DNA of 64,000 nucleotides, taken from contig SYLG01000181.1 in the NCBI GenBank assembly GCA_005808665.1, positions 1 to 64,000 on the forward strand, read 5' to 3'. The notes beneath the pieces are model-generated. The model ran no database searches and was not told the DNA's origin. It saw only the letters and a list, made by a program, of their open reading frames with translations. This document shows positions 21,420 to 33,449 of the stretch, piece by piece; the stretch's first letter is position 1, and every line of letters starts with the position of its first letter. Source of the DNA: Planctomycetia bacterium. GTDB lineage: Bacteria; Planctomycetota; Planctomycetia; Gemmatales; Gemmataceae. Position numbers and translations under genes: made by a program.

Positions 21420-21657
21420 GCTTTTGCCAACCTAACCCTTTGGTTTGGGATTCCTGCCTTGGGATTGGAATCTTTACTTGTCCAATGCTTGGTTTGTGCT
21501 AATCCAATAAGAGACTTTCTCCCGATGGTCCCTGCCACCTTGGTCCTGCCACTTCGTGCAAAAGTCGCTTTTCCCAAGGGCGTTGCCGAACCACCGGGAG
21601 GATAACCCACCACCACACCACCCCGCCTCCCATTGGCTTCCTCTATTGAGTACCCGA

Positions 21658-22617
21658 ATGCAGATTGTAATAACAGATTACACTTTTCCAGACCTGTCGA
21701 TTGAGGAACAGGTTTTTTCCGGGAGCGGGTTTTCCCTGGTTTCCGGTCAGGCCAAAACGCCCGAAACACTGATTCCACTTGTAAAAACGGCGGATGCGGT
21801 GATCACCCAATTTGCGCCGGTAAATGCATCGGTAATAGAGGCCATGGAACGAGCCAAGGTTATTGTTCGCTATGGGATTGGGGTGGACAATGTGGACCTC
21901 AAAGCCGCTCGTTCCAAGGGAATTCCGGTTTGCAATGTACCCGATTATTGCATCGATGAAGTTGCCGACCACACACTTGCCTTTCTGTTGGCCAGTACAC
22001 GGCAGGTGGTTCCTCACTCGGTTGCCATCCACGCAGGTAAATGGGGTTTGGCAACCCCAATAAGCGGGATCAAAGCACTTAGGGACATGACCGTTGGAGT
22101 CGTTGGATTTGGCCGAATCGGGAGGGAGGTTGTAGCCCGGCTCAAGGCATTCAAATGTCGGGTTTTGGTTCATGACCCGGTTGTAGATCCCACCCAAATT
22201 ACATTGCAAGGCGCGGAACCTTCCACCCTTTCAGAAATCCTCAAAAACTCGGATGCGGTAACCCTTCATTGCCCTTCGACCGAAAAAACCCGTGGGCTAA
22301 TGGGCCATGAGGCCTTTACCCAAATGAAACAGGGTGCCATCCTTATTAACCTGGCAAGGGGAGATCTGGTTCAACCCGATGCCTTGGTCGAGGCGCTGAA
22401 ATCAGGCAAACTCGGTGGGGCGGCTTTGGATGTTTTCTCCCCGGAACCGATTCCGCCTGGCCACCCGATCCTGGGAATGGCCCAGGTCATATTGGCACCC
22501 CATATTGCTTCGGTAAGTGTACCTGCCGTTCGAAAACTAAGAGAAACTGCGGCAGGGCTTGCGCTATCTGCCCTTCAGGGAGCAGTCCCCGCCAATATTG
22601 TAAATGCCAATCCTTGA
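21658..22617 (+). CDS. D-isomer-specific 2-hydroxyacid dehydrogenase
   Basis: A 319-residue NAD-dependent reductase of the D-3-phosphoglycerate/hydroxypyruvate dehydrogenase family. Visible are the nucleotide-binding GVVGFGRIGREV, the catalytic arginine in NLARGDLV, the glutamate in FSPEPIPPGHP and the histidine in LAPHIAS. The family interconverts 2-oxoacids and D-2-hydroxyacids; substrate unknown. ATG 21658 aligns with the family N-terminus, whereas the longer frame adds a proline- and histidine-rich tail. It leads a tightly spaced catabolic operon, 13 bases before the Ldh-type gene. Confidence 0.9.
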   Translation: MQIVITDYTFPDLSIEEQVFSGSGFSLVSGQAKTPETLIPLVKTADAVITQFAPVNASVIEAMERAKVIVRYGIGVDNVDLKAARSKGIPVCNVPDYCIDEVADHTLAFLLASTRQVVPHSVAIHAGKWGLATPISGIKALRDMTVGVVGFGRIGREVVARLKAFKCRVLVHDPVVDPTQITLQGAEPSTLSEILKNSDAVTLHCPSTEKTRGLMGHEAFTQMKQGAILINLARGDLVQPDALVEALKSGKLGGAALDVFSPEPIPPGHPILGMAQVILAPHIASVSVPAVRKLRETAAGLALSALQGAVPANIVNANP

Positions 22618-22630
22618 TCTTTGAGGTCCT

Positions 22631-23716
22631 ATGTCCACACCAGTTTCGACCAGGAATCCATTGAGAATAAAACCCGCCGTGCTTGTGGGTTTTTGCCGGG
22701 AGGCCCTTGCTGCGGTGGGGTTAAGCAAAGCCGATCAGGCAACCGTATCCGGGGCCTTGGTATTGGCAGACTCGATGGGTGTTTTTACCCATGGGACCAA
22801 GCTTTTGGTGGGTTACCTCAAACGGCTTCAGGGGGGTGGGTACCAGGCAAGCGGCCTCCCCAAAATTGAGCGGGAGGGCCCAGCTTGGGCAGTTGTCGAG
22901 GGGGCCCATGCTTTGGGACAAATCGGGGGCACCTTTGCCATGAATTTGGCTGTTGAAAAAGCCAGAATTTGCGGCGTAGGCTATGTTGGACTGAAAAATA
23001 CCGGCCACATTGGAGCAGCGGGATATTACGCCGTTTTAGCCGCTCAAAAGGAAATGGCAGGAATGGTACTAGGTAATGATCGGCCCAGTGTGGCCGCCCC
23101 CGGGTCCAAAGGTCCCGTTTTAGGCAGCAATCCTCTTGCGTATGCGGTTCCAGTACCAGGGGGTGACCCCATTCTTTTGGACATGGCTACTTCGGCCGTG
23201 GCCGGTGGAAAAGTTTATGCAGCGTTTCAAAGGGGGGAACCCATAGCAGACACCTGGCTGATTGGTCACGATGGAAAACCCACCACCGATGGTAGCCTTT
23301 ATCCCCACCAGGCGGCACTGGCCCCCATGGCTGGACACAAAGGCTATGGGATCGCCCTTTGGGCAGAGATCCTTTCGGGTGTGATTCCGGGTGGGGCAAT
23401 AACCTGCCAGGTAGGCAGTTGGATGTTTGACGAACCTTGTAAACCTTCGCTTCATAATGCTGCTTTTTTGGCAATCGATGTCATGGCCATATCAAACCGT
23501 GATATTTATACCAAAAAAATCAACCATTTGGTGCATGAGATTCAAAACTCCCCACCCGCAGAGCTGTCCACCCCTGTCCTCCTTCCCGGGCAACGGGAAT
23601 GGGCCCAAAAACGGTCCTCGGATCAAAACGGGATTGTGTTGCCTGAGGATGTCCTGGCCAAACTGGACGAAGTAGCCAGGGAATGGAACCTCAACACCCC
23701 ATGGACCCAAGTTTAG
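22631..23716 (+). CDS. Ldh2/malate-lactate dehydrogenase family oxidoreductase
   Basis: A 361-residue protein of the NAD(P)-dependent Ldh2/YiaK type, a fold distinct from classical LDH. Characteristic segments are THGTKLLVGYLKR, VGLKNTGHIGAAGYY and LGSNPLAYAVP. Members act on malate, L-lactate, ureidoglycolate or 2,3-diketo-L-gulonate. In this operon a sugar-acid-derived 2-oxoacid is the likeliest substrate (inference). A GAGG site precedes the ATG. It ends 37 bases before the FAH-family start. Confidence 0.9.
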   Translation: MSTPVSTRNPLRIKPAVLVGFCREALAAVGLSKADQATVSGALVLADSMGVFTHGTKLLVGYLKRLQGGGYQASGLPKIEREGPAWAVVEGAHALGQIGGTFAMNLAVEKARICGVGYVGLKNTGHIGAAGYYAVLAAQKEMAGMVLGNDRPSVAAPGSKGPVLGSNPLAYAVPVPGGDPILLDMATSAVAGGKVYAAFQRGEPIADTWLIGHDGKPTTDGSLYPHQAALAPMAGHKGYGIALWAEILSGVIPGGAITCQVGSWMFDEPCKPSLHNAAFLAIDVMAISNRDIYTKKINHLVHEIQNSPPAELSTPVLLPGQREWAQKRSSDQNGIVLPEDVLAKLDEVAREWNLNTPWTQV

Positions 23717-23753
23717 GGCCTTGATTTTTTTTGTTTTACAGCAGGAGTTTGTG

Positions 23754-24563
23754 ATGAAATTGATTCGGCATCTGGATGGATCAGGAACCAAGGCTTACGC
23801 CCGCCTTCACGACAATGGTTCGTACACAAGGATTGAAGGCTGCCCTTTTGGAGAACACAAGGATACCGGCGAAAAGGTTGAGCCCGGAAAAATTCTCGCA
23901 CCTGTGGAACCCCGCGATATCCTTTGCATTGGGCTTAATTACCGACGCCACGCCGAGGAAACCAAATCCGCCATTCCTGAAAATCCTGTCCTTTTCCTGA
24001 AAAACTCGGGTGCGGTGCAAAACCCGGGGGATCCCATTGTTTTGCCAGGCAGGCTTAAATCGGATTCCGTCGATTATGAATGCGAGTTGGCGGTGGTAAT
24101 AGGCAAGAATTGCCACAATGTTACCAGAAAAGATGCCATGAAGTATGTTTTGGGCTACACCTGTGCCAACGATGTCAGTGCAAGGGACTGGCAAAAAAAT
24201 GGTGGGGGCGGCCAATGGTGTCGCGGCAAAACTTTTGCCACCTTTTGTCCCTTGGGACCGGTGCTGGTCACAGCCGATGAAATCCAAAACCCAAACAACC
24301 TCGGCATTCGAACCATTCTCAATGGCAAGACTATGCAGGATTGGAACACCAATGACATGATTTTCGATGTGCCCGCAATCATCGAATTTCTCTCTTCAAG
24401 TACCCTGCTTCGCAAAGGAACGGTAATTCTGACTGGCACCCCGCACGGAGTAGGTATTGCCCAGAATCCCCCTGTATTTCTCAAGGCTGGAGACATTGTC
24501 AGCATTGAAATCGATAACATAGGAAAGCTTACCAATCCCGTGGCGGAGGAGCAGGTTTCCTGA
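23754..24563 (+). CDS. Fumarylacetoacetate hydrolase (FAH) family protein
   Basis: A 269-residue FAH-fold enzyme. The conserved core includes ILCIGLNYRRHAEE, DYECELAVVIG and the divalent-metal carboxylates of that fold, and the end reads GTPHGVGIAQNPPVFLKAGD. Relatives hydrolyse or decarboxylate acylpyruvates, for example 2,4-diketo-3-deoxy sugar acids in the L-fucose and L-rhamnose oxidative routes. ATG 23754 follows AGGAG with a six-base gap; the longer frame adds a meaningless leader. Its stop overlaps the kinase start by one base (TGATG), so translation is probably coupled. Confidence 0.9.
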   Translation: MKLIRHLDGSGTKAYARLHDNGSYTRIEGCPFGEHKDTGEKVEPGKILAPVEPRDILCIGLNYRRHAEETKSAIPENPVLFLKNSGAVQNPGDPIVLPGRLKSDSVDYECELAVVIGKNCHNVTRKDAMKYVLGYTCANDVSARDWQKNGGGGQWCRGKTFATFCPLGPVLVTADEIQNPNNLGIRTILNGKTMQDWNTNDMIFDVPAIIEFLSSSTLLRKGTVILTGTPHGVGIAQNPPVFLKAGDIVSIEIDNIGKLTNPVAEEQVS

Positions 24564-25891
24564 TGCGATGCCTTGGGTTGGATCTGGGATCGACAACAAT
24601 AAAAGGTGCCGTTTTAGACTTGGAAACGGCCACCTTGTCCCATTTCCAATCCGTGCCCTTTCCAGCACCTGTCGGTGGCCTCGATCCCGGATTCCATGAG
24701 GTTCACCTGGGCGAAATTCTTGCGGCAACCCGCCTTGTCCTGGAAAAACTGTCCCAATCCGCCCCGGATGCTTCCAATCTTTTTGTTTGTTCCCAAATGG
24801 GAGGGTTGGTTTTATCCGATACTTCGGGCGCCCCGATAACCCATTACCTTTCGTGGAGGGACCAGAGGACCCTTGGCAAATCTTCGAATGGCCAATCGTT
24901 TCTGGACGAAACCCGAATTCGGCTTGGAGAGGAATGGTTTGGCCGAATGGGTGGAGAACTCAAACCGGGTTCGCCAACCAGTCTTTTGTTTTGGCATGCT
25001 CAAAATGGCAAACTACCCTTGCAAGGAACCGCCTCCTCGCTTGGGGAATGGGTCGTTGCCAATTTGACCAAAAATGGGTTATTCATGCACCCAGGCATGG
25101 CAATAGGGTTATTGGATTTGACGCTTGGGGATTGGGCCCATGGTGGTTTTGAGAAACTGGAGATTAGCCCGATTCGGTGGCCCCATATTTCCAAAACATT
25201 GGACCCTGTCGGGGCTGTAACCATTGGCTCTTCGAAATTGCAAGTGCATCCCGCCCTTGGTGACCAGCAATGTGCCCTTTTTGGAGTCGGACTATTACCG
25301 GGTGAATTGTCCATCAATGCATCAACAGGTTCCCAGGTTAGTCGATTAAACCCCCATTTTAACCCTGGGCCATTCCAATCCCGGTATTATTTTGAGGATT
25401 GGAAGCTGGACACGATCACTCACATTCCGGCCGGACGCTCGCTCAATGCCATTGTCGATTTGTTGACCGAAATACCCAATTCCAACGGGAAACCGGTTCC
25501 TCCATGGGAATACATAAGTTCATGTCTTGAAAACGAAACCGGGAGCGACCTGGATTGCAGTATCTCCTTTTTTCCAGGGCCCCTTGGTGAAACCGGCCAC
25601 CTTAAAGCCATTACTTTGGAAAACCTCACCGTGGGCAAGTGGATATTCGCCGCCCTGACCTCGATGGCCAAAGGGTACAGGCTTTGTGCGGAAAGGCTTG
25701 GCCCAATTGCCTCCTGGAAGGGTGTTGTGGTTTCCGGAGGACTGGCGCAAACGCTCCCAAAACTTGGTACTCTTCTTCAACAAAACTTCCCTGGGCTTGC
25801 CATTCGCCATAACAACGGTGTCGAGGAAACCCTGATGGGTCTCCTTCGCCTTGCACAAAAACAATTGGTTTTGCCCCATTCTCCAACCTGA
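24563..25891 (+). CDS. FGGY-family carbohydrate kinase, sedoheptulokinase-like
   Basis: A 442-residue ATP-dependent sugar kinase. The first phosphate loop is LGLDLGSTTIKGAVL; the substrate half has FVCSQMGGLVLSD; the second half begins HPALGDQQCALFGVG with NASTGSQVS, followed by VVVSGGLAQTLP. The GDQQ segment resembles sedoheptulokinase-type members more than xylulokinase, but substrate cannot be fixed. It overlaps the FAH gene and precedes the transporter by 14 bases. In a pathway otherwise of dehydrogenases it would supply the phosphorylation step. Confidence 0.85.
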   Translation: MRCLGLDLGSTTIKGAVLDLETATLSHFQSVPFPAPVGGLDPGFHEVHLGEILAATRLVLEKLSQSAPDASNLFVCSQMGGLVLSDTSGAPITHYLSWRDQRTLGKSSNGQSFLDETRIRLGEEWFGRMGGELKPGSPTSLLFWHAQNGKLPLQGTASSLGEWVVANLTKNGLFMHPGMAIGLLDLTLGDWAHGGFEKLEISPIRWPHISKTLDPVGAVTIGSSKLQVHPALGDQQCALFGVGLLPGELSINASTGSQVSRLNPHFNPGPFQSRYYFEDWKLDTITHIPAGRSLNAIVDLLTEIPNSNGKPVPPWEYISSCLENETGSDLDCSISFFPGPLGETGHLKAITLENLTVGKWIFAALTSMAKGYRLCAERLGPIASWKGVVVSGGLAQTLPKLGTLLQQNFPGLAIRHNNGVEETLMGLLRLAQKQLVLPHSPT

Positions 25892-25905: not shown

Positions 25906-27210
25906 ATGAACGAAACGGTAACCGGTGCACCCGATTCCAAATCCCTGGAAAAAGCGACCCTGGTGAAAATCTCATGGCGAATCATCCCGTTTATTTGTGT
26001 ACTTTATATTTTCAACATTCTCGATCGTGCCAACCTGGGATATGCCCGCACTCCCATGGAACAGGATATTGGCTTGACCAAAGCTGCCTTTGACATTGCC
26101 TATGGCCTATTTTACATCGGGTATCTTGTTTTTGAAATTCCCTCCAATTTGCTTTTAACAAGAATTGGAGCCCGCATCTGGATTTCCCGGATCATGATTA
26201 CCTGGGGCCTCGTCTCCATTCTCACCATGTTTGTGAAAAATGTGGAACAGTTGTATGTGGTCCGAATTTTGTTGGGGGTCGCAGAAGCGGGCTTTTTTCC
26301 GGGCATTATCCTTTACCTGACTTTTTGGTTTCCCTCGCGGGAACGAGCCAAAGTGGTCGCCCTTTTCATGGTGGCAATCGCTTTTGCAGGCGTTCTGGGT
26401 AATCCCCTATCGGGCCTCATCCTTCAATATCTCCACAAAATGGGAGGGCTTAATGGCTGGCAATGGCTTTTCCTTCTGGAAGGCATTCCGTCCGTACTTC
26501 TTGGAATTTTTGTCCTGAAGTTTCTGCCCAATGGACCCAAAGAGGCGGCCTGGTTAAATGCAAATGAAAAAACCTGGCTCCATAACACCCTTGAAGAAGA
26601 ATCCAAAATCCGACTGAAAAACAAAGGGACCAATCATATCTGGGCCATGGTTGATCCCCGGGTTCTGCTTTTGACGGCGTTGTATTTCACGGTGGCAGTA
26701 GGAGCGAATGCCTCGGGTGCCTACCTTCCTACCCTGATTGCCGAACATTTTCCCAAAAGCCTTCCCTTTCAGGTAGGGTTGATAAGTGCTTTACCGCATA
26801 TTTGCTCTGTTTTGCTTATGATCGCACTTTCCCGATGGTCCGACAAAAGGGGTCAAAGGAGCCCCTTTGTCGCCTTGGCTTCTGGCCTCGCTTGTTTGGG
26901 ATGGCTTTTTGCCTGGAAGGCCGGAGACCCTTGGCTGGCCCTTGGGGGACTTTGTTTGGCACAAGCGGGCATGATGTCCATGCTGCCTGTTTTCTGGCCA
27001 CTTCCCAGTACATTTTTGGGTGGTGCCGCGGCGGCAGGAGGCATTGCCTTCATCAACTCGGTTGCCAACATCGGCGGTTTTTACGGGCCAACTGTTCTCG
27101 GAAAATATGGCATTGAGGCCGTTGCTATGACCATGGGAATCGGAACGGTTTTGGCACTCCTCGTGGGAATCCTTGTGGAACCCAAAAAGTCTATTCTGGA
27201 AAGGACCTAA
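25906..27210 (+). CDS. MFS transporter, anion:cation symporter (ACS) type
   Basis: A 434-residue, 12-helix transporter. The start (RIIPFICVLYIFNILDRANLG) and RILLGVAEAGFFPG are typical of the ACS subfamily, which takes up sugar acids such as galactonate, glucarate or tartrate, and also phthalates. Its position between a sugar kinase and dehydrogenases suggests it imports the operon substrate, probably an organic acid (inference). The SDR gene starts three bases after its stop. Confidence 0.9.
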   Translation: MNETVTGAPDSKSLEKATLVKISWRIIPFICVLYIFNILDRANLGYARTPMEQDIGLTKAAFDIAYGLFYIGYLVFEIPSNLLLTRIGARIWISRIMITWGLVSILTMFVKNVEQLYVVRILLGVAEAGFFPGIILYLTFWFPSRERAKVVALFMVAIAFAGVLGNPLSGLILQYLHKMGGLNGWQWLFLLEGIPSVLLGIFVLKFLPNGPKEAAWLNANEKTWLHNTLEEESKIRLKNKGTNHIWAMVDPRVLLLTALYFTVAVGANASGAYLPTLIAEHFPKSLPFQVGLISALPHICSVLLMIALSRWSDKRGQRSPFVALASGLACLGWLFAWKAGDPWLALGGLCLAQAGMMSMLPVFWPLPSTFLGGAAAAGGIAFINSVANIGGFYGPTVLGKYGIEAVAMTMGIGTVLALLVGILVEPKKSILERT

Positions 27211-27213
27211 AGC

Positions 27214-28008
27214 ATGGGTTTGGGAATTTTTAACCTTCATGGAAAGGTCGCTCTCGTGACAGGGGCGGCCAGCGGAATGGGGCGGGCCACGGCGTTGGCT
27301 TTGGCCGACCACGGGGCAACCCTCCTTTTGGCAGACCTGAACGAAGAAGGGCTCAAACAAACCCAAAGTATGATACACGCAACCGGGGCCAAGGTCTCCA
27401 TTCAGACGACCGACACCTCCAATGTGGCGTTGATTGGCAAACTCTTTGCCAGGCTTGATCAGGAAATGGGCCGGGTTGATTTTCTGGCCAACATTGCCGG
27501 GGAAGGGATCCTGGCCAACCCTGTGGACCTCACCCAGGATCAACTCCAAACGGTCTTTCAAAACCTGGTTTTTGGCCGCTTTGCCATGTGCCAGGAAGCA
27601 GGAAAGCGAATGCTTGCCCAAGGGGGTGGTTCCATAGTGAACATCGGTTCCCTGGCGAGTAATACCGCTTTGGGCCGGGGACACATTGCTTACAGCATGG
27701 CCATGGGTGCGGTGGTTCAAATGACCAGGGAACTTAGTACCGAATGGGCCAGCAAAGGCGTTCGCGTCAATGCGATCCTGCCTGCCCAGGTTATGAATCC
27801 ATCCCTTGAAAAACGGATTGCCGCCGACCCCTCGATGGAACAGAAATGGCTATCCGGAATCCCCCGTGGAAGGCTTGGAAACCCGAAAGACATCCAGGGA
27901 CTCATGGTGTTGCTGGCCTCCGAAGCCTCTTCTTGGATCACGGGAGCCCTTATCCCCATGGACGGTGGGAATTTGGCCATGAATGCGGGCGGCACAATCG
28001 GCATCTGA
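27214..28008 (+). CDS. SDR-family protein with the catalytic lysine replaced by methionine
   Basis: A 264-residue Rossmann protein with cofactor loop TGAASGMG (16-23), LANIAG (91-96), catalytic serine S146 in VNIGSLA and tyrosine Y160. Classical SDRs have YxxxK; here the sequence is YSMAMGAVV, giving M164 where lysine belongs. The codons (TAC AGC ATG GCC ATG) are unambiguous. The rest of the fold is intact, so it may be an altered enzyme, a binding protein or an inactive copy. In the operon it would otherwise be read as a sugar-acid dehydrogenase. Confidence 0.88.
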   Translation: MGLGIFNLHGKVALVTGAASGMGRATALALADHGATLLLADLNEEGLKQTQSMIHATGAKVSIQTTDTSNVALIGKLFARLDQEMGRVDFLANIAGEGILANPVDLTQDQLQTVFQNLVFGRFAMCQEAGKRMLAQGGGSIVNIGSLASNTALGRGHIAYSMAMGAVVQMTRELSTEWASKGVRVNAILPAQVMNPSLEKRIAADPSMEQKWLSGIPRGRLGNPKDIQGLMVLLASEASSWITGALIPMDGGNLAMNAGGTIGI

Positions 28009-28044
28009 TAATCGACTTACACCATAGACAATTTGGGAATGATA

Positions 28045-30024
28045 ATGGTACTCGACAATAAAACATTGGCAAACCTTCTCCGGACCATGCTCACCATTCG
28101 GCTTACCGAAGAGGAGTTGGCCAGGTGCCACCAACGGGGACTCATTCACGGAGCCTGCCACACCTATGTCGGCCAGGAGGCGATTGCGACGGGTGTTTGC
28201 GCCCATTTGGATATAAAAGATAGTGTTTTTAGCACTCACCGTGGTCATGGCCACGCTTTGGCCAAAGGTATGCCTCCTGCCGAGTTAATGGCAGAGCTAT
28301 TTGGCAGGTCCACCGGATGTTCCCGGGGCCGTGGGGGCAGTATGCATATTTTCTCTCCCGAAATCGGCATGATGGGAACCAGTGGCATCGTGGGGCCTTG
28401 TATCCTTCAGGCGTGTGGGGGCGGTTACAGTTCCAAAATCCTGGGCAACCAAACCGTAGGCGTTGCTTTTTTTGGCGATGGGGCAGTGAATAACGGAGCC
28501 TTCCACGAAGGCTTGAATATGGCCGCCATCTGGAAACTGCCTGTCCTGTTTATTTGTGAAAACAACCAGTTCGCCACGGAGGTTCCTTTTGCTTACTCAA
28601 GCGGGATTCCTGATGTGGGCCGCCGTGCCGCAAATTATGGCATCGCCGGGATTGAGGTCGACGGAAATGATGTTATTGCCGTACACCAGGCAGCCCTTGA
28701 AGGCATAACCCGGGCCAAGGGAGGACTGGGGCCGACTCTCATTGAATGTAAAACCTACCGGACCAGAGCCCACGCCGAAGGTATGGGAGATTTTACTTAC
28801 CGTACCAAAGAGGCTGTGGAGGAGTGGAAAAAGCGATGCCCCATCGAGAGGTTAAAATGTCGCATGATTTCAGAGTTTGGGTTCCTCCCCTCTGCAATTG
28901 AACTGATTGAAACCGAGGTCGCCGCCCTGGTGAAACAAGGGCGGGACTTTGCGGAATCCAGCCCCCGGCCTGATCCCAAAACGGCCAGGGACCATGTTTA
29001 CGCGATGAATCCTCAAAAGGACGAGGAACCTGCCCCCAACTCCAGGGACAGGTCCATCACTTTTTCCCAAGCCACACTTGAAGCTCTAACCGAGGCCATG
29101 GAAGCGAATCCCAACATTTTTGTGATGGGAGAAGGAATAGGTGTTCGTGGGGGCAATTTCCGGACAACCGCCGGGCTTTTTGACAGGTTTGGACCGGCTC
29201 GCCTTTGCGATACCCCTATTTGCGAAAGGGGATTTGTCGGCCTTGCCTGCGGGGCGGCAATGACCGGGACAAGACCCGTGATCGACTTCATGTTTGCCGA
29301 TTTTGTATTGGACTCCATTGGGGAAATTTTTAATCAGATCGCCAAAATCCAATATATGTCAAGCGGGCGCCTTACAATGCCTTTGCTTTTGAGAGGTTGC
29401 ATAGGCATTGGCCATTCCGCGGCGACCCACCATTCCGGAAGTTATTATGGTATGTATGCCCAGGTTCCCGGTCTGGTAGTGGTTGTCCCTTCCTCCCCCT
29501 GGGATGCCAAGGGTCTGATGCGGACCGCCCTTCTAGGGAATGATCCGGTTCTTTTTCTGGAGCACAGGGAAATCCTGCAATCCAAGGGTCCTGTTCCTGA
29601 AGGGGAATATTGCATCCCCTTTGGCAAAGCGGCGGTGGTTCGGGGTGGCAAAGACTTGACCATTGTTGCTCTTGCCAGGATGGTGCATTTGGCCCAAAAA
29701 ATCGCGGAGGAACTGGCCGCTACCGGGGTATCGCTTGAAATCATTGATCCCCGGACGGTCCTGCCCCTGGACACCCAAACCATCCTCCAATCGGTACAGA
29801 AAACAGGGAGGTTGCTGATTGTTGACGAGGCACCCCCTTCCTGCGGGTTTGCCGCCGAGGTGGCCGCATTGGTAGGCGATGCCGGGTTTGATTTCCTTGA
29901 TGCACCGATAAAAAGGCTTTGTGGAACCTTTGCCCCTACCCCCTATAGCCCTGAACTCGAGGCGGTAATGGTCCCGACCGCCAAGGACATCACCAAGGCA
30001 GTACTTTCCCTTTTGGAGGAATAA
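28045..30024 (+). CDS. Fused E1 alpha-beta subunit of a 2-oxoacid dehydrogenase complex
   Basis: A 659-residue thiamine-diphosphate enzyme. The alpha half (about 1-320) has THRGHGHALAKG, GDGAVNNGAFHEGLNMAA as the ThDP/Mg site and KTYRTRAH. The beta half (from about residue 335) has VMGEGIGVRGGNF, DTPICERGFVGLACG with the catalytic glutamate, and the C-terminal transketolase domain (IIDPRTVLPLD). It resembles acetoin/pyruvate dehydrogenase E1 with both subunits in one chain. The start is uncertain among TTG 28033, ATG 28039 and ATG 28045; 28045 has the best spacing from GGGA. The E2 gene starts two bases after its stop. Confidence 0.9.
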   Translation: MVLDNKTLANLLRTMLTIRLTEEELARCHQRGLIHGACHTYVGQEAIATGVCAHLDIKDSVFSTHRGHGHALAKGMPPAELMAELFGRSTGCSRGRGGSMHIFSPEIGMMGTSGIVGPCILQACGGGYSSKILGNQTVGVAFFGDGAVNNGAFHEGLNMAAIWKLPVLFICENNQFATEVPFAYSSGIPDVGRRAANYGIAGIEVDGNDVIAVHQAALEGITRAKGGLGPTLIECKTYRTRAHAEGMGDFTYRTKEAVEEWKKRCPIERLKCRMISEFGFLPSAIELIETEVAALVKQGRDFAESSPRPDPKTARDHVYAMNPQKDEEPAPNSRDRSITFSQATLEALTEAMEANPNIFVMGEGIGVRGGNFRTTAGLFDRFGPARLCDTPICERGFVGLACGAAMTGTRPVIDFMFADFVLDSIGEIFNQIAKIQYMSSGRLTMPLLLRGCIGIGHSAATHHSGSYYGMYAQVPGLVVVVPSSPWDAKGLMRTALLGNDPVLFLEHREILQSKGPVPEGEYCIPFGKAAVVRGGKDLTIVALARMVHLAQKIAEELAATGVSLEIIDPRTVLPLDTQTILQSVQKTGRLLIVDEAPPSCGFAAEVAALVGDAGFDFLDAPIKRLCGTFAPTPYSPELEAVMVPTAKDITKAVLSLLEE

Positions 30025-30026
30025 AC

Positions 30027-31343
30027 ATGGCATTTGAAATCCGTGTTCCCCGATTGGGATGGTCGATGGAAGAGGGCACATTTGCCGGGTGGCTCAAATC
30101 CCAAGGCGACCTGGTTCGCGCCGGGGAACCATTATTTTCCCTCGAAGGGGAAAAAGCCACCCAGGACATTGAGTCCCTTGATTCCGGGTTTTTACAAATC
30201 CACCCCAATGCCCCCATTGCCGGCAAAGTGGTATTGGTTGGTGCACTTTTGGGTGTCCTGGTCCCGGAGGGAGAGGTGTACGAGTGGGAATGTGCGGATT
30301 CGCCCACCCAACCGACCTCGATTGACCCCTTTGTTGTTCCAAACACCCACCCCCCTGCCCCGGCTTCCCCATCAGCCCGCCGCCTTGCCAGACAAAAAGG
30401 ACTCTTGCAGCCGAAAATTCCCAATCATGCTACCCCAATCGCCGCCGATGCCCCACCCATGGACCATACCTTGGTTACGGGAGCTTCCGCTGTATCCACC
30501 TCTACTCTGGCAACCCCAAGAGCTCGCAAACTGGGTAAAAAACTCGCCTTGGACTGGCGGACGATACCCGGTTCCGGCCGAAACGGGCGGGTTCGGGAAA
30601 GAGATATTCTTGTTTGGACTCAATCCTCTCCTCCCCAAAACCCGGATTGGATTTCACTACCCCTCACCAACACCCGAAAGCGAATCGCCGAACGCCTGGC
30701 GCAAAGCCGGAATCAGGCGGTTCCTGTAACCCTTACCACCAAGGCGAACGCCACTAAACTGGTTGCATTAAGGCAAAGGTTCAAAAATGCCCAGGGTGCC
30801 GTTCCCTCTTTCACTGACATTTTGGCCAAATGTGTAGCCCTTTGTTTGGTTGATCATCCTCTCCTCGCCGGGAGATGGAAAGAAGACCACCTGGAATACC
30901 CAAAAAAAGAAGGGATCCACATCGGCATTGCTGTCGATACGGAGCATGGACTTTTTGTGCCCGTCCTTAGGAATCTGGCCCACGCATCGCTTTTTGACAT
31001 TGCCAAAAAATCTACCGAATTGGCTCATTTGGCTCGAATAGGGAGGCTCCCGGCAGAAGCCATGAAGGGGGGAGTTTTCACCCTTTCCAGCCTGGGATCC
31101 CTTGGCGTTGAATTTTTCACCCCGGTGATCAATCCGCCCGAAACGGCAATTCTTGGGGTGGGCACGATGCAAAATGAGGCTATATTCCAAGAAGACGGTT
31201 CCCTGATTGGTCAGAAACGGCTCCCCTTGAGCCTTACCTTTGACCACCGCATTGTGGACGGAGCCCCAGCCGCCCGCTTTCTCAGGGATTTGGTTTTATT
31301 GATTGAAACCCCTCCGGAAGCCTTAGGGTGCTTTGAGGGCTAA
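30027..31343 (+). CDS. Dihydrolipoamide acyltransferase (E2) of the same complex
   Basis: A 438-residue E2. One N-terminal lipoyl domain carries the modified lysine K43 in LEGEKATQDIES. A peripheral-subunit-binding domain follows (ATPRARKLGKKLALDW, near residues 160-195). The catalytic domain ends with TFDHRIVDGAPAARF, which has the His and Asp of acyltransferase. It is immediately downstream of the fused E1, so both surely form one complex. No lipoamide dehydrogenase (E3) is encoded in the window; a shared E3 from another locus is expected. Confidence 0.93.
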   Translation: MAFEIRVPRLGWSMEEGTFAGWLKSQGDLVRAGEPLFSLEGEKATQDIESLDSGFLQIHPNAPIAGKVVLVGALLGVLVPEGEVYEWECADSPTQPTSIDPFVVPNTHPPAPASPSARRLARQKGLLQPKIPNHATPIAADAPPMDHTLVTGASAVSTSTLATPRARKLGKKLALDWRTIPGSGRNGRVRERDILVWTQSSPPQNPDWISLPLTNTRKRIAERLAQSRNQAVPVTLTTKANATKLVALRQRFKNAQGAVPSFTDILAKCVALCLVDHPLLAGRWKEDHLEYPKKEGIHIGIAVDTEHGLFVPVLRNLAHASLFDIAKKSTELAHLARIGRLPAEAMKGGVFTLSSLGSLGVEFFTPVINPPETAILGVGTMQNEAIFQEDGSLIGQKRLPLSLTFDHRIVDGAPAARFLRDLVLLIETPPEALGCFEG

Positions 31344-31380
31344 GTCTTTGATACGATTTCACTCAAAAAGGAGTATTCTC

Positions 31381-32763
31381 ATGCAAAAAAAACCTGATCA
31401 ATCGGTTTCTGTCAAACAAAGGCGGGATTTTCTCAAGGCTCTTGCCTTGGGTACCTCGGCCGTTACGGTGGTTCCCCGCCATGTCCTGGGGGGGCCCGGC
31501 CTTATTGCACCTAGTGACCGGATTCGGGTTGCCTCGGTAGGCGTTGGGGGTATGGGGGGAGGCGATGTTGGCACGATTAGTCGCCTTGGGGCAGAAATCA
31601 TTGCTTTGTGTGATGTGGATCAGGTTCGTGGAGCCGGTTCGTTCAACACCTTCGCCAAAGCCCGTCGCTACAAAGATTTTCGGATCATGCTGGATAAGGA
31701 AGCCAATAACATTGATGCTGTTACGGTGGGAACCCCCGACCACACCCACGCCGTGGCCACCATGGCAGCGCTCCGGGCAGGGAAACATGTTTACTGCCAA
31801 AAACCGCTGACCCAAACCCTGCATGAAGCCAGGGAGGTTACCAAAACGGCAAAGGCGGCTGGTGTTATCACCTCCATGGGTAATCAGGGGCACGCTTCCG
31901 AGGGAGCCAGGCTTACCAACGAATGGATTCGTGGGGGAGTAATAGGCGAAGTAAATGAGGTTCATGCCTGGTCCGACCGGGCGGGCAAACTGTGGAAACA
32001 GGGCCTTGGCAGACCCAAAGGCAGACCCGATACTCCCAAAACCCTCGACTGGGACCTTTGGCTTGGGCCCCGGCCGGAACGGCCTTATAACCCGGCATAT
32101 GCCCCGCATAATTGGCGGGGTTGGTGGGATTTTGGCACAGGGGCCTTAGGTGACATGGGTTGTCATATTCTGGATCATCCTATCTGGGCCCTGGAATTGG
32201 ACGCCCCGTCTTCGGTGGAAGCCCGGACCACCCTTGATGGAAGTGAACTCGAGGACAAGCGGCCCAATTTCGAAACCTATCCCATTGCTTCCCTTATCTA
32301 TTACCACTTTCCCGCCAAGGGAAACCGCGGGCCCGTGAAAATGACCTGGTATGATGGAGGCCTGATGCCTGGTGTCCCTAACGAAATGCCAGACGGGAGA
32401 AGACTTCCGGATAACGGCGTGCTTTACATTGGCACAAAAGGCAAAATGTACCACTCCTCCCATGGCGGGATGCCGCAACTCCTTCCCGGCGAACTGATCG
32501 AAGAGGCCAAAAAGGTCCCCAAAACCATGGAACGATCTCCGGGCCATTACGAGGAATGGGTCAATGGTTGCAAAACCAAAAAACGGCCGGCCGCATCTTT
32601 TGATTACTCAGGTCCCATGACCGAAACGGTGCTATTGGGGGTTTTGGCACTCCGGGTTCCAGGCAGGCGATTGGAATGGGATTCAGCCCTGTTAAAGGTG
32701 AAAAACCAACCGGAGCTCCAACCGTTCATCCAACCCGAATTCCGAAAGGGGTGGTCCCTGTGA
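31381..32763 (+). CDS. Gfo/Idh/MocA-family oxidoreductase with Tat signal
   Basis: A 460-residue protein. Its N-terminus has a twin-arginine signal (KQRRDFLKALALGTSA), followed by the Rossmann cofactor loop ASVGVGGMGGGDVG, the family lysine in YCQKPLT and a catalytic-region histidine in LGDMGCHILDHP. The cofactor would be bound before folded export through Tat. Planctomycete members like this are thought to oxidise glycosides, often at C3. ATG 31381 after AAGGAG is clearly better than the longer frame. It overlaps the DUF1080 gene by four bases. Confidence 0.9.
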   Translation: MQKKPDQSVSVKQRRDFLKALALGTSAVTVVPRHVLGGPGLIAPSDRIRVASVGVGGMGGGDVGTISRLGAEIIALCDVDQVRGAGSFNTFAKARRYKDFRIMLDKEANNIDAVTVGTPDHTHAVATMAALRAGKHVYCQKPLTQTLHEAREVTKTAKAAGVITSMGNQGHASEGARLTNEWIRGGVIGEVNEVHAWSDRAGKLWKQGLGRPKGRPDTPKTLDWDLWLGPRPERPYNPAYAPHNWRGWWDFGTGALGDMGCHILDHPIWALELDAPSSVEARTTLDGSELEDKRPNFETYPIASLIYYHFPAKGNRGPVKMTWYDGGLMPGVPNEMPDGRRLPDNGVLYIGTKGKMYHSSHGGMPQLLPGELIEEAKKVPKTMERSPGHYEEWVNGCKTKKRPAASFDYSGPMTETVLLGVLALRVPGRRLEWDSALLKVKNQPELQPFIQPEFRKGWSL

Positions 32764-33449
32764 TTCGGTCCCAAATCGTTTGGTTGTGCCTATTTCTTGC
32801 CACGGGAAGCCTTACCGGGGCAGATAACGAATTGTCTCCTCAGGAAAGCGCCGAGGGTTGGCAACTGCTATTTGATGGGAAAACCACTACGGGATGGATG
32901 AGTCCCAAAGGAAAACCACTTCCCCAAACCCATGTCCAGGACGGGTCCTTAAACCCCCATCGCTGCGATTATATGCTCACCCATGAAAAGGTTTGGGGGA
33001 ATTACCGGCTTGCATTGGATTTCAAGATTTCCCCAAAGTGCAATAGTGGGCTTTTCCTAAGGACCTACCCTTTGACACCCAGGCCGGGAAGGGATGTTGG
33101 TTTCAATGGGTTGGAAATCGCAATTGATGACACCCAAAACGCAGGCTACCATGACACCGGAGCCCTTTATGACCTATCCAAACCCAAAAGCAACGCCATG
33201 AAACCTGCGGGCCAATGGAACCACATGGAGGTCCTCTCCGATGGCCCCTTGATTGTGGTTCTACTCAATGGCACCGAGGTTAACCGGGTGGATTTGGATC
33301 TCTTTCAAAGTCCAAACTTGAGGCCTGACGGGACGATGCACAAATTTGATACCGTATTCAAAGACCACCCTCGCAAGGGCCATATTGGCTTACAGGATCA
33401 CGGTTCCGACTGCTGGTACAAAAATATTAAAATCCAACCTAAAAAGTAG
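32760..33449 (+). CDS. DUF1080 / 3-keto-disaccharide hydrolase-type exported protein
   Basis: A 229-residue jelly-roll (concanavalin-like) protein with a signal peptide (VIRSQIVWLCLFLATGSLTGA) and the DUF1080 start GWQLLFDGKTTTGWM, then YRLALDFKISPKCNSGLFLR and the C-terminal GHIGLQDHGS. Some DUF1080 proteins cleave 3-keto-glycosides. The GTG start overlaps the oxidoreductase stop (GTGA) and has AAGGGG upstream. The overlap suggests a two-step pathway in the envelope: oxidation of a glycoside, then hydrolysis of the keto product. Confidence 0.85.
   Translation: MIRSQIVWLCLFLATGSLTGADNELSPQESAEGWQLLFDGKTTTGWMSPKGKPLPQTHVQDGSLNPHRCDYMLTHEKVWGNYRLALDFKISPKCNSGLFLRTYPLTPRPGRDVGFNGLEIAIDDTQNAGYHDTGALYDLSKPKSNAMKPAGQWNHMEVLSDGPLIVVLLNGTEVNRVDLDLFQSPNLRPDGTMHKFDTVFKDHPRKGHIGLQDHGSDCWYKNIKIQPKK

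Follow-up and report, generated by a model that had tools for sequence, protein, structure and literature searches.

The window, i.e., the whole stretch of 64,000 nucleotides of planctomycete DNA that was analysed, contains a gene cluster on the forward strand in the order 2HDH, Ldh2, FAH, FGGY kinase, MFS, SDR, fused E1 and E2 (Table 1). A gap of 3 bases separates the MFS stop codon from the SDR start and one of 24 bases the SDR stop from the E1 start, and due to this short intergenic spacing the MFS, SDR and E1 genes are likely to be co-transcribed. The predicted functions point to sugar-acid catabolism; a substrate-specific NCBIfam cut-off was passed by none of the operon members. A Gfo/Idh/MocA oxidoreductase and a 3-keto-disaccharide hydrolase are encoded directly after E2 (window positions 31333-33449).

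Table 1. Genes and active site codons of the operon around the Met-form SDR (window positions).
Feature	Position	Strand	Evidence
D-2-hydroxyacid dehydrogenase (2HDH)	21649..22617 (ORF may start at 21556)	+	PF02826 4e-57
Ldh2 family dehydrogenase (malate/sulfolactate/ureidoglycolate type)	22631..23716	+	PF02615 5e-95; NCBIfam below cut-off
FAH-family hydrolase, closest to 2,4-didehydro-3-deoxy-L-rhamnonate hydrolase	23721..24563	+	PF01557 2e-74; NF053535 5e-60, below cut-off
FGGY-type carbohydrate kinase	24563..25891	+	PF00370 7e-11
MFS transporter (HpaX/galactonate type)	25906..27210	+	PF07690 1.5e-46; TIGR02332 1.6e-90, below cut-off
SDR with YxxxM (Met-form), 264 aa	27214..28008	+	Met164 in 116/116; AF2; Foldseek
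Leu118 codon, catalytic Asn column	27565..27567	+	Leu 114/116, Ile 2/116
Arg122 codon, one helix turn past Leu118, candidate replacement cation	27577..27579	+	116/116
Ser146 codon, catalytic Ser kept	27649..27651	+	116/116
Arg155-Gly-His157 codons, Arg (Tyr-5) and His (Tyr-3), beside the active site	27676..27684	+	R155 and H157 each 100% in 116
Tyr160 codon, catalytic Tyr kept	27691..27693	+	116/116
Met164 codon (ATG), at the catalytic Lys position	27703..27705	+	Lys in 52/52 compared lysine-form relatives, a set picked for having Lys
Fused alpha-beta thiamine-dependent dehydrogenase E1	28033..30024	+	PF00676 4e-72, Transket_pyr, Transketolase_C
Lipoyl E2 acyltransferase	30027..31343	+	PF00198 1e-68, Biotin_lipoyl, E3_binding

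The SDR reading frame is translated without a stop, and the translation contains Ser146 and Y160-S-M-A-M164, i.e., YSMAM in place of the YxxxK motif, in agreement with the preliminary description of this locus. The protein (Met-SDR) shows the Rossmann-type domain of the classical SDR superfamily, as judged from Pfam (adh_short_C2, 1e-50), the AF2 model (pLDDT 88.4, pTM 0.88) and Foldseek, for which the top match was gluconate 5-dehydrogenase 1vl8 (TM 0.89). Its scores were below every curated NCBIfam cut-off among those listed. A description of a YxxxM SDR clade or of methionine at the lysine position was not found in the literature searched, which covers few subscription journals.

The preliminary description proposed to examine whether Met164 is conserved, as orthologues that all carry lysine would indicate a single-strain change or an assembly error. 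A collection scan, in which one of the seeds held the motif itself (HIAYSMAM), yielded 80 orthologues, nearly all from Planctomycetota, which are 63-87% identical and all carry methionine. As a check for bias, whole genomes were searched again with the full protein and without the YSMAM seed, resulting in a match in 131 of the 398 genomes of the class and a clear gap in identity between the family (at least 57%) and all others (at most 46%). Tyr together with Met was present in 62/62 examined members above 55% identity and Tyr together with Lys in 9/9 examined relatives at 36.5-46%. Tabulation of all distinct sequences above 55% identity gave a family of 116 members (57-87% identity), and M164, Y160 and S146 are present in each of them, so that every close orthologue has methionine and a single-strain change or an assembly error is ruled out by sequences from many assemblies. 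Moreover, dN/dS was about 0.07 for Met-SDR compared to its orthologue in L009 and 0.03-0.06 as calculated for close pairs within the family, indicating that Met-SDR is under strong purifying selection. The view that Met-SDR represents an assembly error, a mutation confined to one strain or a gene in decay is based only on the textbook expectation that the lysine is needed, and against the 116/116 orthologues, the low dN/dS and the intact frames its probability is negligible. In the phylogenetic tree, the Met-form is a single clade (support 100/100) nested among lysine-form SDRs with L147 as sister, indicating that it arose once from lysine-bearing SDRs. The Met-form operon was also found on metagenome contigs that bear Kuenenia, Actinomycetota or Akkermansia in their titles (L023, L028, L071, L079, L088), and these record names may be wrong.

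The genomic neighborhood is conserved as well. In about 70 of the 80 loci, counted by eye, E1 follows at a short distance downstream of the SDR and in the same orientation, and the usual arrangement places the SDR gene directly 5' of the fused E1 and the lipoyl E2. Recurrent neighbors are a tandem PF04199 cyclase (27/80 loci; e.g., L044:2573-4318 (+), for which no NCBIfam family was found at 1e-10) and an Nramp-like transporter (27/80), and a DapA-like enzyme occurs in 3/80. The Nramp-family protein (e.g., L057:1156-2823 (+)), an unusual type of transporter for a sugar-acid operon, is encoded just upstream of Met-SDR in many loci and apparently replaces the MFS transporter. The earlier impression of an intact gene within a working-looking operon is borne out by the stop-free reading frame, the conserved operon and the dN/dS of about 0.03-0.07. 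It had further been stated that loss of the lysine normally kills activity, and that the protein yet may have a new role. Low dN/dS and operon conservation support that the usefulness of Met-SDR outlasted the loss of the lysine, and any new role is hypothetical.

As the textbook hallmark of SDRs, the Tyr-Lys pair serves for calling activity from sequence, and in classical SDR biochemistry little dehydrogenase activity remains once Lys or Tyr is lost. In the Met-form, the Ser-Tyr pair of the classical tetrad is present in 116/116 sequences, Tyr+4 is Met in 116/116 and the position of the Asn in helix alpha-E is Leu or Ile in 116/116, i.e., half of the tetrad is altered jointly (Lys to Met and Asn to Leu). 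The change in the Asn column, like the Phe-form SDR described below, is not part of the preliminary description. Column 118 is Asn in 42 of the 52 lysine-form relatives. The residue preceding this column, position 117, is Asn in 109/116 Met-form sequences, and a local helix shift is conceivable. The TGxxxGxG, Asp41 and NxAG motifs are kept with G17, G21, G23 and D41 being invariant, which predicts an NAD-type cofactor site. Among the residues invariant in the Met-form and rare in lysine-form relatives are R122, H157, S175, Q192, N195, R201 and W241; at position 122 the relatives have V, T, A or L. R155, Q192 and the GRG loop are common to the Met-form and its lysine-form sister. Helix 108-136 of the AF2 model contains both Leu118 and Arg122, and as judged from the helix spacing Arg122 might be placed near position 164 to substitute for the lysine. 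In L-2-keto-3-deoxyfuconate 4-dehydrogenase (L-KDFDH), Arg148 at Tyr-3 binds the substrate carboxylate (PMC11199699). The position of His157 matches this carboxylate binder, making an anionic ligand a reasonable inference for Met-SDR.

The E1 component was used as anchor for a survey of the class, and E1 orthologues were found in 162 of the 398 genomes. Many of the operons lacking a Met-SDR beside E1 hold another SDR, mostly downstream of E2. This Phe-form SDR (P0003; e.g., L213:2949-3692 (-), further loci L212-L215, L218-L223, L225 and L232-L281) shares about 36% identity with the lysine-form query, forms a separate clade (100/100) and has FxxAK for YxxxK, with Phe in 48/49 and Lys in 49/49 distinct sequences. 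The catalytic Asn is replaced by Asp in 49/49, resulting in the set D-S-F-K. A lone member, L250 (G518), has Tyr (AYIAAK) with Asp still replacing Asn, representing either a reversion or persistence of the ancestral state. Met- and Phe-form have in common an Arg at Tyr-5 and an Ala at Tyr+3. The Phe-form was present in 51/398 genomes, and it was not found in a search of the window's own genome. The 162 E1 genomes comprise 119 with only the Met-form, 35 with only the Phe-form, six with both and two with neither, where co-occurrence was scored per genome and not always as adjacency, the SDR and E1 lying on different contigs in some cases. Met- and Phe-form nearly exclude each other in the E1-positive genomes with a Fisher p = 7e-27, a value that ignores the phylogeny of these related genomes. 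In a quick E1 tree, operons labelled Met and Phe are interspersed with at least five and three label changes, respectively, and therefore exchange occurred within E1 lineages. Most genomes carry a single form and G593 is the only one with both in one operon, ruling out a partner SDR that completes the Met-SDR site in the same operon. That differently altered SDRs are exchanged next to the same E1/E2 suggests a requirement of the pathway for an NAD-type protein with SDR fold, but not for the canonical proton relay.

Taken together, we assign a probability of roughly one half to the reading that Met-SDR belongs to a planctomycete-specific, pathway-bound SDR subfamily performing NAD-dependent catalysis on an anionic intermediate without the Tyr-Lys-Asn relay. 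Met-SDR would act as a functional part of a pathway together with the thiamine-dependent E1/E2 complex. Ser146, Tyr160 and the predicted NAD(H) site are retained, but Met and Leu take the place of Lys and Asn in the proton relay. The charged and polar residues around the site, i.e., Arg122, Arg155, His157, Gln192, Asn195 and Arg201, form a set specific to the family. In the most likely mechanism, the substrate would be an anionic intermediate derived from a sugar acid, and Tyr160 would be helped by the invariant Arg155/His157 (or Arg122) in place of Lys, with no Asn-water-Lys relay to solvent. The sequence, its invariance, the single origin, purifying selection, the operon and the near-exclusive exchange with the Phe-form are observed, and NAD binding, the anionic ligand, catalysis and the residues doing the chemistry are inferred.

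The main rival to such a rebuilt enzyme is a non-catalytic NAD(H)-binding protein, i.e., a regulatory or scaffold subunit that senses, e.g., NADH/NAD+ or a pathway metabolite for E1/E2. The known effects of Lys or Tyr loss fit a pseudoenzyme equally well, the cofactor motifs are retained and two separate SDR lineages with different catalytic losses stand in for each other next to the same E1/E2; features common to both forms could originate from a common ligand rather than from a common reaction. A precedent exists in MAT2B, an SDR-fold, NADP-binding regulatory subunit, although this protein keeps YxxxK (PMC3793261). However, in some genomes (L203, L206, L208, L209, L227-L230) the genes for Met-SDR and E1 lie apart, the invariance of substrate-side residues exceeds the needs of a sensor of NADH only, and the lysine-form sister L147, whose operon is similar, has the appearance of a complete enzyme. 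These points make the sensor less likely, and since the substrate-side residues are invariant and the sister in its similar operon looks complete, we favour an enzyme whose active site has been rebuilt over both the sensor and a non-redox enzyme.

An isomerase, epimerase, dehydratase, decarboxylase or lyase with SDR fold, i.e., a non-redox or closed-cycle enzyme, would have no need for the Asn-Lys relay, consistent with the loss of the catalytic Asn in both forms (Leu/Ile in 116/116, Asp in 49/49). Halohydrin dehalogenases, SDR-fold proteins in which another residue stands at the position of the catalytic Lys, perform non-redox chemistry with Ser-Tyr-Arg and offer a precedent (PMC4989007). Unlike in these enzymes the NAD motif of Met-SDR is intact, and the neighbors in sequence and fold are dehydrogenases with no known non-redox member close, rendering this possibility rather improbable. 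Still less probable is an ordinary dehydrogenase in which the lysine is fully replaced by one residue such as Arg122 of the neighboring helix: this residue is invariant, family-specific and located four residues past Leu118 on the same helix, but the compensation leaves unexplained why the Phe-form loses Tyr while keeping Lys.

Beyond the individual protein, it appears possible, at odds somewhat below even, that one planctomycete catabolic pathway recruited an SDR twice independently, removing a different catalytic half each time (Lys and Asn; Tyr and Asn). If true, the canonical Tyr-Lys-Asn relay of protons would be disfavoured by selection at this step of the pathway, which would imply either convergent non-canonical SDR chemistry or convergent NAD(H)-sensing SDRs for a dehydrogenase complex of the 2-oxoacid type. 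Two fixed, widespread and still-selected SDR clades break the Tyr-Lys signature differently and substitute for one another within one operon. The pair thereby represents a clean natural system for asking for the purpose of Lys and Asn, and it is useful for finding SDR activities misnamed by motif-based annotation and for identifying a planctomycete sugar-acid pathway.

Compared to known systems, the fold of Met-SDR resembles that of the gluconate 5-dehydrogenase, KduD and glucose 1-dehydrogenase SDRs (1vl8, 4j2h, 4z9y; TM 0.87-0.89), which are also alike in length, TGxxxGxG, Ser and Tyr at about 30-34% identity, whereas they possess Asn and Lys in place of Leu and Met. Halohydrin dehalogenases have Arg for Lys and a nucleophile pocket for the NAD site; the Met at Tyr+4, which is incompatible with the Ser-Tyr-Arg triad, and the intact TGxxxGxG motif rule out that Met-SDR is one of them. 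MAT2B differs from the Met-form as an extended SDR with YxxxK kept and an unrelated partner. L-KDFDH is an SDR of sugar-acid pathways feeding FAH-type hydrolases (PMC11199699). It keeps Ser-Tyr-Lys and Asn, and Met-SDR falls outside the L-KDFDH/L-KDRDH type with Ser-Tyr-Lys and arginine ligands, as it has no Lys and has His instead of Arg at Tyr-3. The Phe-form shares with the Met-form the E1/E2 partner and an altered catalytic set but lost Tyr instead of Lys, has Asp instead of Leu for Asn and is usually encoded 3' of E2. An operon on a Rhizobium plasmid (L197:3454-10530) encodes a sugar ABC transporter, E1 alpha/beta, E2, an FGGY kinase and two lysine-form SDRs; it was rejected as the same pathway and is an analogue at best, as its SDRs carry Lys and its E1 is only 36-41% identical.

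The closest relative found is the lysine-form sister L147/L202, which is 44-46% identical to the Met-form; L202:9316-10104 (-) originates from genome G445, which also has a Met-form and a Phe-form. Further lysine-form sisters in an E1 operon were absent from the samples of Verrucomicrobiota and Acidobacteriota. The sister shares the GRG(N/H) and PAQ motifs and an operon with 2HDH, E2 and E1. However, it has the complete N-S-Y-K set, its E1 alpha and beta are separate genes, and neighboring ORFs resemble, as read from their sequence, an ABC transporter and not an MFS transporter. Since this nearest lysine-form relative has a similar operon, the role of Met-SDR may be the same as or neighboring that of the sister, carried out with a rebuilt active site.
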